Source: Pseudomonadota bacterium (lineage in GTDB: Bacteria; Desulfobacterota; Desulfobacteria; Desulfobacterales; Desulfobacteraceae). Taken from it: 15,579 bases of DNA. The position numbers and the translations under genes were made by a program. Below, in pieces: positions 90 through 13,006 of the stretch. The notes beneath the pieces are model-generated. The model was not told where the DNA came from. It saw only the letters and a list, made by a program, of their open reading frames with translations, and made no database searches. The stretch's first letter is position 1. Each line of letters begins with the position of its first letter. The DNA lies in contig JAHIVS010000629.1 of the NCBI GenBank assembly GCA_018816605.1, positions 1-15,579 on the forward strand, given 5' to 3'.

Positions 90-1208
90 TTAATTTTTCT
101 CAATGGCCTGGAATCGTCGGATAAATTTTTGGTCAATATAGTCTTTTATCATAAAAGCCAGCCTGCCGCCAAAAACGAAATTATTTTTCCGCAAAAGCCC
201 TATTTTCCCGCCCAGATTAAAAATCAACAGATAATCGGGCCCGGGATCAAAGGGTTCAAGGTCTGTGCCCTCCAGAGCCGCCATGAGATTGTGGAGCAGT
301 ACGGGATTTTGCCGGACCGCATAGACCCCCACCTTGTCCAGGGGTTTGCTTTCAAAATAAATACAATCCCCTCCCCCAAAGAGTTCAGGGTATGACACGC
401 TCTGGAGATATGGGTTGACCCGAAGCCCCTTGTCCGGCCCCAGCGGCAAACCCGATGCCTCAAAAAGAGCGGAGGGCTTCACCCCCAGGGCCATGAACAC
501 AAAATCCGTATCAAAGCGTTCGCCGGTTTCAAGGGTGATGTTGTTCTGCGTCACAGCTTTCACATATCCTGTTTCGATAATCTCTATCCGCCTTTTATGG
601 AAAAGGGAAAAAATCCGCTGCCGGATGGACTCGGGAAATCGGGCCATGAATTTTTTCCCGGCAAAGATACGGATTTTCGGCAGATTTCCCTTTGTTTTGC
701 CGGCCAGCTGCCAGACATTGCCTGCAACCTCTGCCGAGGAGGGACCGCCCCCGACAATACTGATGGTTGCTGCCCTTTCCAAAAACAGCTTCTTTAGCTT
801 ATCCGATGCTTCCATAAGCCGTTCAATGGGCTTGACCGGATAGATATTCTCTCCGGATTCAAACGCTGATGCCATGGGCACATAACTGCCGGCATTAAAA
901 GAGAGCACATCATAGGCAAACTGCTGGCCCGATTGGGTAAACACCTGTTTTTTATCCGGATCAATCCGGACCACCCAATCCTTTACAAAAATACCGCCCT
1001 GGCCAATTACCACCTGCCGGGTATCAAACCGGATTTGCTCCGGGGTATAGGTATTGCCCAGGATTCCCGGTCCCATTCCCGAATAATAATGGTGGAAAGA
1101 GGGCGCAATCACAGTAACCTTGATCCCTTTCTCAACAAACCGGCTGATATTTTCCAGGATGACCATGTGGGCATGGCCTCCCCCGACCAAAATCAAATGT
1201 TTTCTCAC
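90..1208 (-). CDS. FAD/NAD(P)-binding oxidoreductase of the SelD-associated (Nterm_to_SelD) type
   Basis: This 372-residue flavoprotein has two nucleotide-binding folds. The FAD-binding start is GGGHAHMVILEN (residues 9-20). The second dinucleotide motif is SIVGGGPSSAEVAG (150-163), and LFGGGDCIYF (276-285) is the C-terminal FAD-binding GD motif. The GGGHAH start, the HYYSGMGPG segment (40-48), GVYAVRQNPVL (294-304) and the KDYIDQKFIRRF tail (355-366) resemble the domain found in front of selenide,water dikinase in SelD fusions (TIGR03169-like, recalled from memory). That family is related to NDH-2 and sulfide:quinone oxidoreductases. It has no redox-active CxxC pair, so it is not a classical disulfide reductase. 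The start is GTG (1206-1208) with GAGGGAGA just upstream. It lies 26 nt after the Sec-rhodanese gene, suggesting one transcript. Its electron donor and acceptor are unknown; NAD(P)H and rubredoxin or quinone are reasonable guesses. Confidence 0.85.
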   Translation of the reverse strand: MRKHLILVGGGHAHMVILENISRFVEKGIKVTVIAPSFHHYYSGMGPGILGNTYTPEQIRFDTRQVVIGQGGIFVKDWVVRIDPDKKQVFTQSGQQFAYDVLSFNAGSYVPMASAFESGENIYPVKPIERLMEASDKLKKLFLERAATISIVGGGPSSAEVAGNVWQLAGKTKGNLPKIRIFAGKKFMARFPESIRQRIFSLFHKRRIEIIETGYVKAVTQNNITLETGERFDTDFVFMALGVKPSALFEASGLPLGPDKGLRVNPYLQSVSYPELFGGGDCIYFESKPLDKVGVYAVRQNPVLLHNLMAALEGTDLEPFDPGPDYLLIFNLGGKIGLLRKNNFVFGGRLAFMIKDYIDQKFIRRFQAIEKN

Positions 1209-1234: not shown

Positions 1235-2065
1235 CTATAGTTCATCCATAAGTTTTCCAAGGCTTGCCAGATGCACTTTTTCCTCATTGGCAATGTCGTT
1301 CAGGATTTTTCTGGGTGCGGCCTGGGTCAGACCTGCCCCTGCCCGCTGATAAAGATCCAGAGCCTGGGCCTCGATGGACATGGCAAGGGAAATCACCTCT
1401 TTTTCCGAATTAAGATCCGGACTGAACAATTCAAGGTACTGGTCTGTGGTCATCCCCCCTTCCATAGCCGTTGCGGTTACCGTGGCCTCAAACTCCACCT
1501 GTTGGATTTTGCCGGGAACAAGCGTTTCATATGCGGCTAAAATCGACAATTGATGCTTGACCTCAATCTCGGATAATTTCGAGAACAGGGACCGCACCCG
1601 TCGATTTTTTGCTTTTCTTTCCATGGAAAGGTAAAAATCCTGGAGCCCCTGCTCAAGGGAGTACGCCACCTTGAGGATATCTTCAGCAGATTCCATGCCG
1701 AAAAACAGGTCCAAGCCAAGGTCCTGGACACCCACAGCGGTTTTGGCCTTCCAGGCCTTGATTCCGCCGGACACATTGTACACCTGTTTAAATCCTTTGC
1801 CGGACAACATCTGGGCAGCAACACGGCTGCGCCCGCCGATGGCTCAATACACCAGAACAGGCTTCTCAGAATCGAGTTCTCCAAGCCTGTCGGTCAGTTC
1901 CGGCAAGGGGATGAGGGTGGCCCCTGGGATATGGCTTTGCTGATATTCATTGGGTTGACGCACATCCAGAATCGTTATCTCATCTGCCTTTGCCCGGGCA
2001 ATCATCTCCCGGGTTTCTTCATAGGCAATCGATTTTACCGGTGTCAAGAACTGAAGCCACTTCAT
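1235..2065 (-). CDS. Selenocysteine rhodanese fused to a ferritin-like (rubrerythrin-type) diiron domain; UGA at 1844-1846 read as Sec
   Basis: Read through one in-frame UGA, this is a 276-residue two-domain protein. Residues about 12-110 are a single rhodanese domain: TILDVRQPNEY (31-41), SHIPGA (44-49) and the active-site loop VLVY-U74-AIGGRSR, where every ordinary rhodanese has Cys. Residues about 125-275 are ferritin-like helices with a complete E / ExxH / E / ExxH set: E138, E168-H171, E232 and E262-H265. The protein contains no cysteine. Both halves are in the same frame, exactly 11 codons apart, and the intervening codons encode the expected conserved residues, so this is neither a frameshift nor a decayed gene. 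The start is ATG at 2065, placed by a strong AAGGAGGATCCC before it; an upstream extension to 2218 would overlap the rubredoxin gene. Likely roles are sulfur or selenium transfer coupled to peroxide or oxygen chemistry (inference). Confidence 0.92.
1808..1841 (-). promoter_or_regulatory. Bacterial SECIS-like hairpin downstream of the UGA
   Basis: In the mRNA, counting from the first base after UGA, bases 15-18 (CAGC) pair with 25-28 (GCUG) and bases 10-12 (GGG) pair with 29-31 (CCC), leaving a 2-nt CG bulge on the 5' side. The apical loop is the hexamer CGUGUU, with G in its second position. An outer CAU/AUG pair (3-5 with 34-36) can close the structure across an internal loop. The UGA-to-loop distance of 18 nt, the small loop and the early loop G agree with what is known of bacterial SECIS elements recognised by SelB. 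Pairing was done by eye, with no energy calculation. Confidence 0.75.
1844..1846 (-). other. In-frame UGA selenocysteine codon (Sec74)
   Basis: The UGA replaces the catalytic cysteine codon of the rhodanese active-site loop (VY-U-AIGGRS). Upstream and downstream codons keep the rhodanese pattern without any shift. An automatic caller would end one gene here and start a second at the internal Met86, losing the catalytic loop. Confidence 0.9.
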
Positions 2066-2075
2066 GGGATCCTCC

Positions 2076-2273
2076 TTATTTGTTAGCGTTGCCTTCCCCC
2101 AGGGATTTGAATGCTTTGGTGCTTGCCCCGCAAACCGGGCATTTCCAGTCTTCGGGCAAGTCTTCAAACCGGGTGCCCTTTTGAATTTTACCCTTCCTGT
2201 CTCCCCGGTCCGGATCATAAATATAGCCGCAATTGGTTGTTTGACACTGATACATATCCTTTGGTTCTGCCAT
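2076..2273 (-). CDS. Rubredoxin with widened C-X4-C first metal-binding loop
   Basis: This 65-residue mononuclear iron protein has [13 protein letters not shown] (8-20) as the first knuckle and WKCPVCGAS (43-51) as the second. The Fe ligands would be Cys10, Cys15, Cys45 and Cys48. The core DPDRGD and FEDLPEDW segments are typical of rubredoxin. The first pair is spaced C-X4-C instead of the usual C-X2-C, a variant I recall from a second rubredoxin of Desulfovibrio. The start is ATG at 2273 with AAGGAG ahead; an in-frame extension to 2345 has no better start and would touch the upstream gene. It ends 10 nt before the Sec-rhodanese/diiron start, so the two are almost certainly co-translated and it is the natural electron donor for the diiron domain (inference). 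Confidence 0.93.
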
Positions 2274-2341: not shown

Positions 2342-3841
2342 TCAAATTTCATGCCCCCGCGTTTTTTTTATCGGACCTGCGGCCACTGCGTACAAAAGAA
2401 CGCTTGTCCTGTTCAAGCCCAGCAGGGCTTTTGCCTCCCCGTCATAGAGGGCGCCGACACCGCAACACCCAAGCCCTAAGCCCTGGGCTGCAAGATAGAT
2501 CCGCTGGGCAATCCGGCCGGCATAAAACATCACATACCGGTATCCCCTGGCACCAAAGGCTTTCTCCAGATCTTCAAGGTTGGCCATGAACAAAAAATTA
2601 ATCCCCGCGGCTTTGATCCATTCCTGGTCCAGACAGATGCCGGCAAAAGCGCGGGCAAATCGCCCCTTTTCCATAAGCTGCATTTTGGAAGGATTTCTAG
2701 AAAAAAAATAACACCCGTCATCCAGGTTCTCAAGATTTTGACAGATCATTCCCATGCTCAGAAAATCCAGTGCCCTTGCAGCCGGTCGGCTGGCATCAAA
2801 ACAAAGAGAACAAAAAATAGTGTTCATCAAAGCAGACCAGGTCCTGACCGGAAGTGTCTCCTGGACAAAATTGCGCCGGGATCTTCTGAGGAGCACAGAA
2901 TCCACAAACCCCTGCCCCCCCTCCATTGGCGGTGGTTTCATGGGAACTGCCACAGGGCCCAACCCTTTTTTTTGTGTAATTTCAGGCAGGGGAAAGGGCC
3001 TGTCCGGTTTGACAATCTTGCCCAAAGAATGGATTTGGGACAAAATTTCATACTGAACCGGTCTTTTCCTGTCCGTTGAGAAAGAAAACTCTGGACTGGG
3101 ATCGGCAGGCTTCCCGGGGTTTCCCGCCAGTCCCATGGCTGAGACATTCATGTCCCGGCCGGATGATACACACACCAAGGGCACCTCCTGGGATGGGTCC
3201 AGTTGTAAAAAATCGGAAATGGCCCTATCCTCAAAATCATAGCAAAGGGTGTGATCCACATCGTACAGCCCCAGGGCAAGGTCCAGATTTTCCACCAGAT
3301 GGCCGGCATCCAGAAGCATATACCGAAAGGCCCGTTCCCGGTATTTCCATGCACTGGTATAGAAGGATGCCGTGACCATGAAACAGACCGTATCCACATC
3401 CCGGGGCGCATAAGTTCCATGGAGCCGGCACAGACAAAAATGAACTGGATCAAAATAATACACACCTGTCTCAAGACCCTCAATCCCTGAAATTGCCACA
3501 TACAAATGGCAGGGATAAAGCCCGCCTGCTGACGGAAGGGTTCTGTTCAGGATCGGAATGGACCGGCTGCGTGTTACCGAGGTCACTCCATAGGCCAAAA
3601 ACAGGATGTGCGACACTGCAGCGATATCCAGACGGCCTTTGCCCGGTCCGGAGGAAAAAAGGGTCAATAGCGGTCTGTCTTGTTGGGAAAAAACTGTGGG
3701 CAACCCAATTCTTTCAAGGGTTTCATAGGCTTTAAATGCCAGGGGATAGGCATCGAAATCAAGGTGGTGGGGGGAGATCCGGTTACGAAAATAACCGGTC
3801 TTTTCATGATATTCCCCGGCAGACAAAAGTTGCATCTTCAT
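2342..3841 (-). CDS. SagB/ThcOx-family oxidoreductase with two nitroreductase-like domains
   Basis: This 499-residue protein carries two nitroreductase-fold halves. The first has the SagB-type signature [16 protein letters not shown] (100-115) and extends to about residue 230. After a Pro-rich linker (about 280-310) the second half starts with [13 protein letters not shown] (313-325), the FMN-phosphate-contacting start of nitroreductases, and ends with [15 protein letters not shown] (451-465). Family members are FMN enzymes; some oxidise azoline rings in peptide natural products, while many stand-alone members have no known substrate. No YcaO cyclodehydratase or evident precursor peptide is present here, so azole synthesis is not supported. 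The start at 3841 (or Met3 at 3835) has only a modest GGCGG upstream. It sits 97 nt after the zinc-ribbon gene and 68 nt before the rubredoxin gene. Confidence 0.85.
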
Positions 3842-3938: not shown

Positions 3939-4130
3939 TCAGACCTCTCCGCTCTTTTTCTCTTCCTCAACCTTGGCGTCCATGACCATCATGCATTCAT
4001 GGCATTCCAAATGGATATTGGGCACATCCCCATATTTTTTTTTCAGTTCTTCCTCTGACATCTCCGCTTCACCGCCACAGCCGCACTGGGGACAGGATGT
4101 TGTGATTCGGTATTTCTTTTTTTTTCCCAT
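3939..4130 (-). CDS. Small zinc-ribbon-like protein (63 aa)
   Basis: This is a short soluble protein with CPQCGC (13-18) and CHEC (43-46), a pattern expected of a zinc ribbon or a rubredoxin-like iron site. The N terminus is lysine-rich (GKKKK) and the C terminus acidic and charged. The ATG is preceded by GAGGAGA at good spacing. It begins 16 nt after the stop of the upstream 54-aa gene, so both are on one transcript. I do not recognise a named family. A metal-binding helper or small electron carrier would suit the company of rubredoxin and a diiron protein, but nothing in the sequence proves it. Confidence 0.75.
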   Translation of the reverse strand: MGKKKKYRITTSCPQCGCGGEAEMSEEELKKKYGDVPNIHLECHECMMVMDAKVEEEKKSGEV

Positions 4131-11629: not shown

Positions 11630-13006
11630 ATGAAAACCATTATCGAACCCTTCAGAATTAAGACCACCGAACCCATTAAGATTATTTCCCGGGAAGAACG
11701 GATCAAAGCTTTAGACGCAGCCCATGAAAACGTTTTTCTGCTGGATGCAGAAGACTGCTGCATTGACCTGCTAACCGACTCGGGCACCGGGGCCATGTCC
11801 ACCCGGCAATGGGCCGCCATGATGATGGGAGATGAATCCTATGCCGGCTCCAGATCCTGGAAAAATTTTGAACGGACGGTGCGAAGCATTACCGGGATCA
11901 AACACATATTGCCCACCCACCAGGGAAGAGCGGCAGAGGGAATTCTTGCCCAGACCCTTATAAAAAAAGGCCAGGTTATCCCGAACAATTCCCATTTTGA
12001 TACCACCCGGGCCAACATTGAATTTGTGGGTGGAATTGCTGCCAACCTCCTGTGTGCGGAAGGGGCGGACACAGCAGATGAATCACCCTTCAAGGGGAAC
12101 ATGGATATTGAAAAACTCAAGGCTTGCATTGCCGAACACGGAAAAGAAAATATCCCTTTTTGCATGATCACGGTCACCAACAACACCGGCGGAGGACAGC
12201 CCGTTTCAATGGCCAATATCCGGGCTGTCAAAAAGGTATTAAAACAGCAGGGGATACCCCTGGTCATTGATGCCTGCCGGTTTGCCGAAAATTCATATTT
12301 TATCCACGAACGGGAAAAAGGGTATCAGGGAAAGTCTTTGCTGGAGATTGCCCGGGAAATGTTTTCCCATGCCGATGCCGCCACCATGAGCTGCAAAAAA
12401 GATGGGCTTGCCAATATCGGAGGCTTTCTCATCTGCAATGACGATACCTGGGCGCAAAAGTTCACCAATCTTCTGATCATGCGGGAGGGATTTCCCACCT
12501 ATGGCGGGCTTGCGGGAAGGGATCTTGAAGCCATTGCGGTTGGGTTGATGGAAGCCCTTGAGTATGATTACCAGGTCTACCGCCAGGCAACGGTCCGATA
12601 TTTGAGTCAAAGCCTCATTAAGATGGGCATTCCCATAGTCCGGCCGGCCGGCGGCCATGCCGTTTTTCTGGATGCCAGAAAAATGCTTCCCCACATTCCT
12701 GCATTACAATACCCGGGCATCGGCGTGATCAATGCCCTTTACATCGAAGGCGGGGTCAGGGGAGTGGAACTTGGCAGTGTCATGTTCGGCAGCTTTGATG
12801 AAAACAAAAAAGAATTGCCCTCCCCCCTTGAACTGGTCCGCCTTGCCTTTCCCCGGCGGGTCTATACCCAGAGCCATTTTGATTACCTGATAGAGGTCAT
12901 AGGAGAGGTCTGGACAATGAAAAACGAAATCCCCGGCTATAAAATCACCTATCAGCCTCAATATCTACGCCATTTCACCTGCCATTTTGAACGGGTGACG
13001 CCCTAG
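11630..13006 (+). CDS. tnaA: Tryptophanase (L-tryptophan indole-lyase); tyrosine phenol-lyase less likely
   Basis: This 458-residue PLP enzyme belongs to the beta-eliminating lyase family. Near-invariant blocks are DLLTDSGTGAMS (46-57), MMMGDESYAGS (64-74), PTHQGRAAE (95-103), GGGQPVSMANIRAV (187-200) and SCKKDG with the Schiff-base Lys257. Y71, D214, R217 and R404 also fit. Three positions separate the two known activities. D124 (HFDTTR) and H448 (LRHFT) are the tryptophanase residues, equivalent to Asp137 and His463 of E. coli TnaA as I recall them. Position 381, an arginine essential in tyrosine phenol-lyase, is leucine here (GVELGS). The reaction is tryptophan to indole, pyruvate and ammonia in the cytoplasm. 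GAGGAT precedes the ATG. There is no TnaC-like leader peptide; control probably comes through the adjacent TetR protein. Confidence 0.87.
   Translation: MKTIIEPFRIKTTEPIKIISREERIKALDAAHENVFLLDAEDCCIDLLTDSGTGAMSTRQWAAMMMGDESYAGSRSWKNFERTVRSITGIKHILPTHQGRAAEGILAQTLIKKGQVIPNNSHFDTTRANIEFVGGIAANLLCAEGADTADESPFKGNMDIEKLKACIAEHGKENIPFCMITVTNNTGGGQPVSMANIRAVKKVLKQQGIPLVIDACRFAENSYFIHEREKGYQGKSLLEIAREMFSHADAATMSCKKDGLANIGGFLICNDDTWAQKFTNLLIMREGFPTYGGLAGRDLEAIAVGLMEALEYDYQVYRQATVRYLSQSLIKMGIPIVRPAGGHAVFLDARKMLPHIPALQYPGIGVINALYIEGGVRGVELGSVMFGSFDENKKELPSPLELVRLAFPRRVYTQSHFDYLIEVIGEVWTMKNEIPGYKITYQPQYLRHFTCHFERVTP

Follow-up and report, generated by a model that had tools for sequence, protein, structure and literature searches.

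An in-frame UGA at codon 74 of a gene on the reverse strand (1235..2065) of the window, by which we mean the whole 15,579-nt stretch of DNA analysed here, almost certainly encodes selenocysteine (Sec), judging from comparison with homologous genes. The gene codes for 276 residues, and when its single in-frame TGA is read through, a rhodanese domain is found joined to a rubrerythrin-type diiron domain. The TGA (1844..1846, reverse strand), read as selenocysteine, occupies the catalytic position of the rhodanese.

The fusion gene and its domains

All elements of the fusion gene lie on the reverse strand. The ATG start is at 2065-2063, the TGA at 1846-1844 and the stop codon at 1237-1235. A ribosome-binding site, AAGGAGG, is located at 2071..2077, read from 2077 to 2071, and an SD-like motif was seen ahead of 123 of 136 homologous genes checked. 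The sequence-only reading of this DNA had placed the gene at 1235..2065 with a strong ribosome-binding site and a frame intact on either side of the TGA, and had described it as a fusion of a rhodanese and a diiron ferritin-like domain. Its coordinates are exact, the frame is intact as described, and both domains are matched by Pfam when the TGA is read through. The rhodanese domain comprises residues 20-108 (1742..2008, reverse strand; Pfam Rhodanese, E 2.5e-23) and the diiron domain residues 129-273 (1247..1681, reverse strand; Pfam Rubrerythrin, E 4.8e-12; 46.9 bits on PF02915 against a cut-off of 22.8).

The diiron domain is of the four-helix type with a conserved Glu and two ExxH motifs, and iron binding is predicted. 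The presumed ligands are E138, E168, H171, E232, E262 and H265. In an alignment of 157 distinct homologues E138 and E168 are invariant (157/157 each) and H171 is present in 156; E232, E262 and H265 are found in all 155 rows that have a letter at these positions. The rhodanese part shows the rhodanese fold with its catalytic Cys or Sec in the active-site loop. The active-site arginine, R79, is invariant (157/157), and the motif x-x-G-x-R-S-R prevails in both TGA and Cys forms. Besides the Sec, no Cys is present in the window protein, and 74 of the 94 TGA proteins likewise have none. In two other loci a second, separate rhodanese with an active-site Cys is encoded no more than about 2.5 kb from the Sec fusion gene, upstream in L005 and downstream in L024.

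These residues bear on an alternative in which the selenoprotein is mainly a peroxidase, its Sec reducing peroxide and its diiron domain only storing or sensing iron. Sec is commonly used for peroxide reduction, and 15 of the 157 loci have a rubrerythrin-like gene, identified by reading of its sequence, no more than 4.5 kb away. However, the invariant R79 and the motif shared by TGA and Cys forms are expected of a sulfurtransferase loop, and the second Cys that would resolve an oxidised Sec is missing in most members. We consider this alternative unlikely.

Codon 74 among homologous genes

A set of 163 genes, 157 of them distinct, was assembled from a 37-locus scan seeded by the window protein, 30 loci from an order search, 100 further listed rows and the window itself. 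Four loci of the scan (L033, L035, L036 and L037) gave no usable gene, six of the 30 order-search loci were copies of genes already in the set, and L034 was excluded from the 157-gene counts as frame-broken, though its codon is TGA. Also left out were two near-full-length genes with no internal stop (G033:C224 and G235:C94), partial rows and unlisted rows. At codon 74 the 157 genes have TGA in 94, TGC in 38, TGT in 25 and no other codon, a TGA:Cys ratio of 94:63 that is no census because sampling left rows out. The scan by itself, in which 33 of the 37 loci span the codon, gave 25 TGA and 8 TGC or TGT. No further in-frame stop occurs in any of the 157 distinct genes.

This distribution is a Sec/Cys exchange pattern. 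Alignment of an in-frame UGA with Cys in homologues, a criterion for selenoproteins, is found here with 94 TGA and 63 Cys codons in 157 genes. The sequence-only reading had put Sec at the catalytic Cys position of the rhodanese and had proposed an alignment of homologues in search of U/C exchange at residue 74; exchange is what the alignment shows, with no random residue. Both forms are found in named isolates: TGA in Desulfospira joergensenii, Desulfopila sp. IMCC35006 and Desulfobulbus alkaliphilus, and Cys in Desulfobacter latus and Desulfosarcina widdelii. In Desulfosarcina cetonica (L034) the site is also TGA, with the two halves of the fusion gene in different frames; the same genome holds a second match without internal stop, G033:C224.

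Among the query and 120 listed of 3047 homologues in the protein collection, the residue-74 column holds C in 119 of 121 sequences, the query being counted here because C had been written for its U. In the remaining two the sequence starts only after residue 74. One (P0002) is the window's own truncated gene call, a 191-residue piece after the TGA that starts at an internal ATG; the other (P0038), 88% identical, is a like-truncated call on a related contig and also starts at an internal ATG. The earlier expectation that standard gene calling would split the gene is thus borne out for at least some gene callers.

These calls, in which the second half opens with an internal ATG, speak for a true stop at the TGA, whether between two separate proteins, in a decayed gene or through a sequencing error. 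Against this, 94 distinct genes have TGA at the same codon and none has another stop, and the split would come after strand 70-73 and before helix 79-89 of the predicted fold. Selection is also seen on both sides of the TGA: between the window and its closest relative (L001), purifying selection is evident before the TGA (pN 0.012, pS 0.20) and likewise downstream (pN 0.051, pS 0.26). A sequencing error is very unlikely because 93 other distinct genes have the same TGA, and the true-stop explanation as a whole is barely credible.

Exchange and distribution of the two forms

On a quick tree built without the residue-74 column, at least 22 Sec/Cys state changes are needed, and at least 10 of these are forced by starred branches; the counts are rough, since 63 of 154 inner branches are open and several rows are long. 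With named isolates of both kinds, at least 10 exchanges provide natural matched pairs in which to look at what, if anything, Sec contributes to a rhodanese.

The fusion family is not a rarity. Matches at E ≤ 1e-30 were obtained in 209 of 389 genomes from the order of L009, the weakest of which may not be the full fusion. In a phylum-wide draw 49 of 395 genomes matched at E ≤ 1e-70; 19 of the 49 matches have one internal TGA, its place having been checked only for genes already in the 157-gene set. Among the matches listed, Cys relatives occur in Candidatus Scalindua and Brocadiales (P0061 and P0120). The gene is common in sulfate reducers, and at least some gene callers truncate it at the UGA.

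A putative SECIS stem-loop after the TGA

Family comparison points to a putative bacterial SECIS stem-loop at 1813..1832 (reverse strand). Its core stem pairs 1830-1826 with 1819-1815 (GCAGC with GCUGC, five pairs), an outer pair joins 1832 and 1813, and the six-base loop at 1825-1820, CGTGTT, has G in second place. A bacterial SECIS is a stem-loop about 16-37 nt after the UGA with a G among the first two loop bases, and the stem-loop of the window has this geometry. The loop starts 19 nt past the TGA, with G in second place, in both registers described below.

The comparison supports the view that the stem-loop is kept in TGA genes through synonymous codons. Synonymous-codon constraint in TGA genes peaks at codons 79-84, 13-30 nt past the UGA. 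All five core pairs are intact in 87 of 94 TGA genes versus 13 of 63 Cys genes, and Ala83 is encoded by GCT in 88 of 94 versus 15 of 63 (Fisher p about 4e-21 and 2e-20, respectively, with kinship ignored). In Cys genes the constraint is shared at Ser80 (AGC), and in part at Arg79 and Arg81, and is absent from Ala83. A G among the first two loop bases is found in 92 of 94 TGA genes and also in 60 of 63 Cys genes. In five TGA genes (L029, L106, L111, L112 and L115) a C-G pair has changed on both sides to A-U, with Ala84 replaced by Ser. The change may be a single event, because all five carriers share one starred group of eight rows, in which L023, L018 and L101 are without it.

When kinship was controlled, the tests went in the expected direction and were mostly not significant. 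The association of Ala83 GCT with TGA had 6.8 pairs for and 1.1 against out of 10 independent pairs (median sign-test p 0.07), that of the core stem 6.0 for and 1.1 against (p 0.125), and that of a third-base G in codon 84 a median p of 0.375. TGA and Cys genes could not be told apart by folding energy relative to synonymous shuffles (mean z -0.69 versus -0.58). The 42 nt of the window folded alone have their minimum in a register slid by 3 nt, with a loop of 3, and the same segment folded with its flanks has its minimum in the core register, with the loop of 6. All pairs of the slid register can form in 41 of 94 TGA genes, and the same holds for 17 of 63 Cys genes. Outer pairs are weak in TGA genes: nt 12 and 31 pair in 43 of 94 and nt 13 and 30 in 49 of 94, the latter being C-C in the window.

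The hairpin with SECIS geometry named by the sequence-only reading is therefore present and its core stem is kept in TGA genes, while folding energy does not discriminate and the slid register competes with it. Rfam had no match in the window at gathering scores, so the assignment as a SECIS rests on the family comparison.

Selenocysteine machinery in genomes of relatives

The closest relative found, with 91% protein identity, comes from a genome that has selA, selB, selC and a TGA-containing selD. This genome (G001) is Desulfobacula sp. S2_67, which shares 90% DNA identity with the window across 4.6 kb; it scores 76.9 bits for tRNA-Sec, 347.3 for SelB, 613.6 for SelA and 369 for SelD, the last with one TGA. 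Among the 33 genomes of the 33 informative loci, tRNA-Sec was over its cut-off in 28, compared with 5 of 14 controls, and SelB in 28, compared with 2 of 14. Neither was over cut-off in G003 and G027, genomes for which completeness is not given; SelD and SelA are both present in G003. Among the 12 of 25 TGA genomes tested for the other two proteins, SelD was found in all 12, its best copy always having one TGA, and SelA was found in 11; the controls gave 2 of 14 and 1 of 14. Genomes with the Cys form mostly have Sec machinery too, so the machinery permits Sec and does not decide in favour of it. Four genomes (G003, G009, G012 and G024) each have two SelD genes over cut-off with one in-frame TGA apiece.

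Neighbouring genes

Three genes on the same strand flank the fusion gene in the window. A rubredoxin gene (2076..2273, reverse strand; PF00301, E 6.1e-21) ends 10 nt before it, and an oxidoreductase of the FAD/NAD(P) type (90..1208, reverse strand; PF07992) begins 26 nt after it. Upstream of the rubredoxin lies a gene for a SagB-type nitroreductase-fold protein (2342..3841, reverse strand; TIGR03605, 153.1 bits against a cut-off of 78.4). Leaving the window aside, 24 of 89 TGA loci and 1 of 59 Cys loci have a rubredoxin gene immediately upstream. The flavoprotein gene follows on the same strand in 67 of 88 loci of the TGA form and in 36 of 60 of the Cys form. The SagB-type cluster occurs in 22 of 157 loci, all 22 of the TGA form, with 21 of its 24 members on the same strand; the gene is a possible operon member. 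A sulfide:quinone-type role, which needs two Cys, was set aside for the flavoprotein, as only one Cys was counted by eye in its sequence.

The flavoprotein is related to a domain that is found fused to SelD (TIGR03169), on which it scores 243.8 bits. This relationship suggests an alternative in which the rhodanese of the selenoprotein handles selenium instead of sulfur, its Sec or Cys accepting reduced selenium and passing it to SelD with help from the flavoprotein. Rhodaneses have been proposed as selenium carriers, and the SelD with an in-frame TGA in all 12 TGA genomes tested also speaks for such a role. On the other hand, the flavoprotein falls below the TIGR03169 cut-off of 310, the diiron domain is left without a role, and the flavoprotein is the usual neighbour of Cys forms as well (36/60, compared with 67/88 for TGA forms). 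Since this SelD-related neighbour is shared by Cys-form loci, a function as selenium donor was given less weight, and we regard it as distinctly improbable.

Proposed function

In the reading that we prefer, sulfane sulfur or persulfide would be turned over at the Sec, in coupling with a diiron centre that receives its electrons from rubredoxin; we give this inferred function about an even chance of being right. It is favoured by the conservation of both sites, the lack of another Cys in most TGA proteins, the persulfide enzymes among the structures related to the rhodanese domain, and the flavoprotein and rubredoxin neighbours. SelB and tRNA-Sec would decode UGA 74 as selenocysteine, helped by the downstream stem-loop, and the Sec would stand in for the catalytic Cys of the rhodanese domain. 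Since the window protein has no other Cys, the Sec could form no internal bond and would have to act alone. Most likely its sulfane sulfur would come from one of three donors, polysulfide, thiosulfate or a low-molecular persulfide, and would end up bound to selenium; because no second thiol is available this adduct would have to be resolved by an outside partner.

Gene order suggests the remaining steps. The rubrerythrin-type domain most likely holds two irons and acts as a reductase of peroxide or O2. Its diiron site would draw electrons from the adjacent rubredoxin, which would stand in for the rubredoxin domain that classical rubrerythrin carries. The flavoprotein encoded next door most likely uses NAD(P)H to reduce either this rubredoxin or the adduct of Sec and sulfur. 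Such an electron route would not be universal, because a minority of loci have rubredoxin directly upstream and 45 of 148 lack the flavoprotein as the next gene downstream. Overall, the genes may form a protection module that combines sulfane-sulfur turnover with oxygen and peroxide defence in sulfate reducers, and it would shield a sulfide-rich anaerobe from oxygen, peroxide and reactive sulfur.

A more far-reaching reading can also be put forward. The protein could be a self-contained seleno-persulfide oxidoreductase in which the Sec holds sulfane sulfur and the rubredoxin-fed diiron centre uses trace O2 or peroxide against that sulfur, an anaerobe's counterpart of the persulfide dioxygenase-rhodanese fusion, and Sec/Cys exchange could track the oxidant exposure of a lineage. 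We consider this reading quite unlikely.

Relation to known proteins

Rhodanese selenoproteins had been predicted before, as the sequence-only reading said. A rhodanese-related selenoprotein from the Sargasso Sea is mentioned in passages of a 2005 paper (PMC1088965), and the portions consulted of a 2026 review (PMC13188914) describe forms 1-5 of predicted rhodanese selenoproteins, with UxxG listed for forms 2 and 4. The window protein resembles forms 2 and 4 as given there in having Sec in a rhodanese-like protein, and its U74-A-I-G also fits UxxG. The words rubrerythrin and ferritin do not occur in the main text of the review. The fusion family may sit in the review's catalogue, since UxxG rhodanese selenoproteins are already included, and it could be inside form 2 or 4 under a generic name, a comparison made by motif only. 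In excerpts of another paper (PMC8318568) the selenoproteins predicted for a marine deltaproteobacterium include a 'sulfurtransferase' and one with 'a rhodanese-like domain', for which no detail is given there. At least 31 selenocysteine proteins are reported for Desulfobacterium autotrophicum (PMC2702500), in passages that do not name the fusion. A literature search, with most subscription journals outside it, found no paper that joins selenoprotein, rhodanese and rubrerythrin. The earlier statement that the fusion is uncharacterised stands insofar as no paper naming it was found, but the catalogued UxxG forms, as far as the parts of the review consulted show, could include it.

TsoB (NF045694), a rhodanese/DsbD fusion-like selenoprotein, resembles the window protein in being a selenoprotein whose rhodanese is fused to a partner. 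On the model of this family the window protein reaches 26.5 bits against a cut-off of 805, and it is not a member. With rubrerythrin the window protein shares the four-helix domain of the Rubrerythrin Pfam family. Unlike classical rubrerythrin, its chain contains a rhodanese and has no rubredoxin domain match, rubredoxin being encoded by the separate adjacent gene. Residue 235, which we take to be the position of the extra Glu in classical rubrerythrin, is Ala in 149 of 155 rows that have a letter there.

Among the solved structures related to the rhodanese domain are persulfide reductases and a fusion of persulfide dioxygenase with rhodanese. The fusion (PDB 5ve3, 5ve4 and 5ve5) links a rhodanese to a redox enzyme that takes its name from persulfides, and persulfide reductases of the NAD(P)H type with a rhodanese domain (3nta, 6pfz and 8a56) show the same kind of joining. 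Their rhodanese domains agree with that of the window protein in sequence and fold, and it is only this part that aligns. The partners in these six structures are presumably other folds, and the catalytic residue presumably Cys. The window protein would bring selenium, sulfane-sulfur and, probably, diiron chemistry together in one chain, in most members without another thiol.

Other features of the window

A short Cys-rich open reading frame at 3942-4130 (reverse strand; MGKKKKYRITTSCPQCGC...) ends at a TGA, after which an open stretch would follow if the codon were read as Sec. Similar small proteins form a cluster in 11 loci. The TGA is probably an ordinary stop, because the cluster member shown ends near the same place. 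At 11630-13006 on the forward strand the window carries a gene like those for tryptophanase or tyrosine phenol-lyase (NF009709), located behind a TetR-type regulator.
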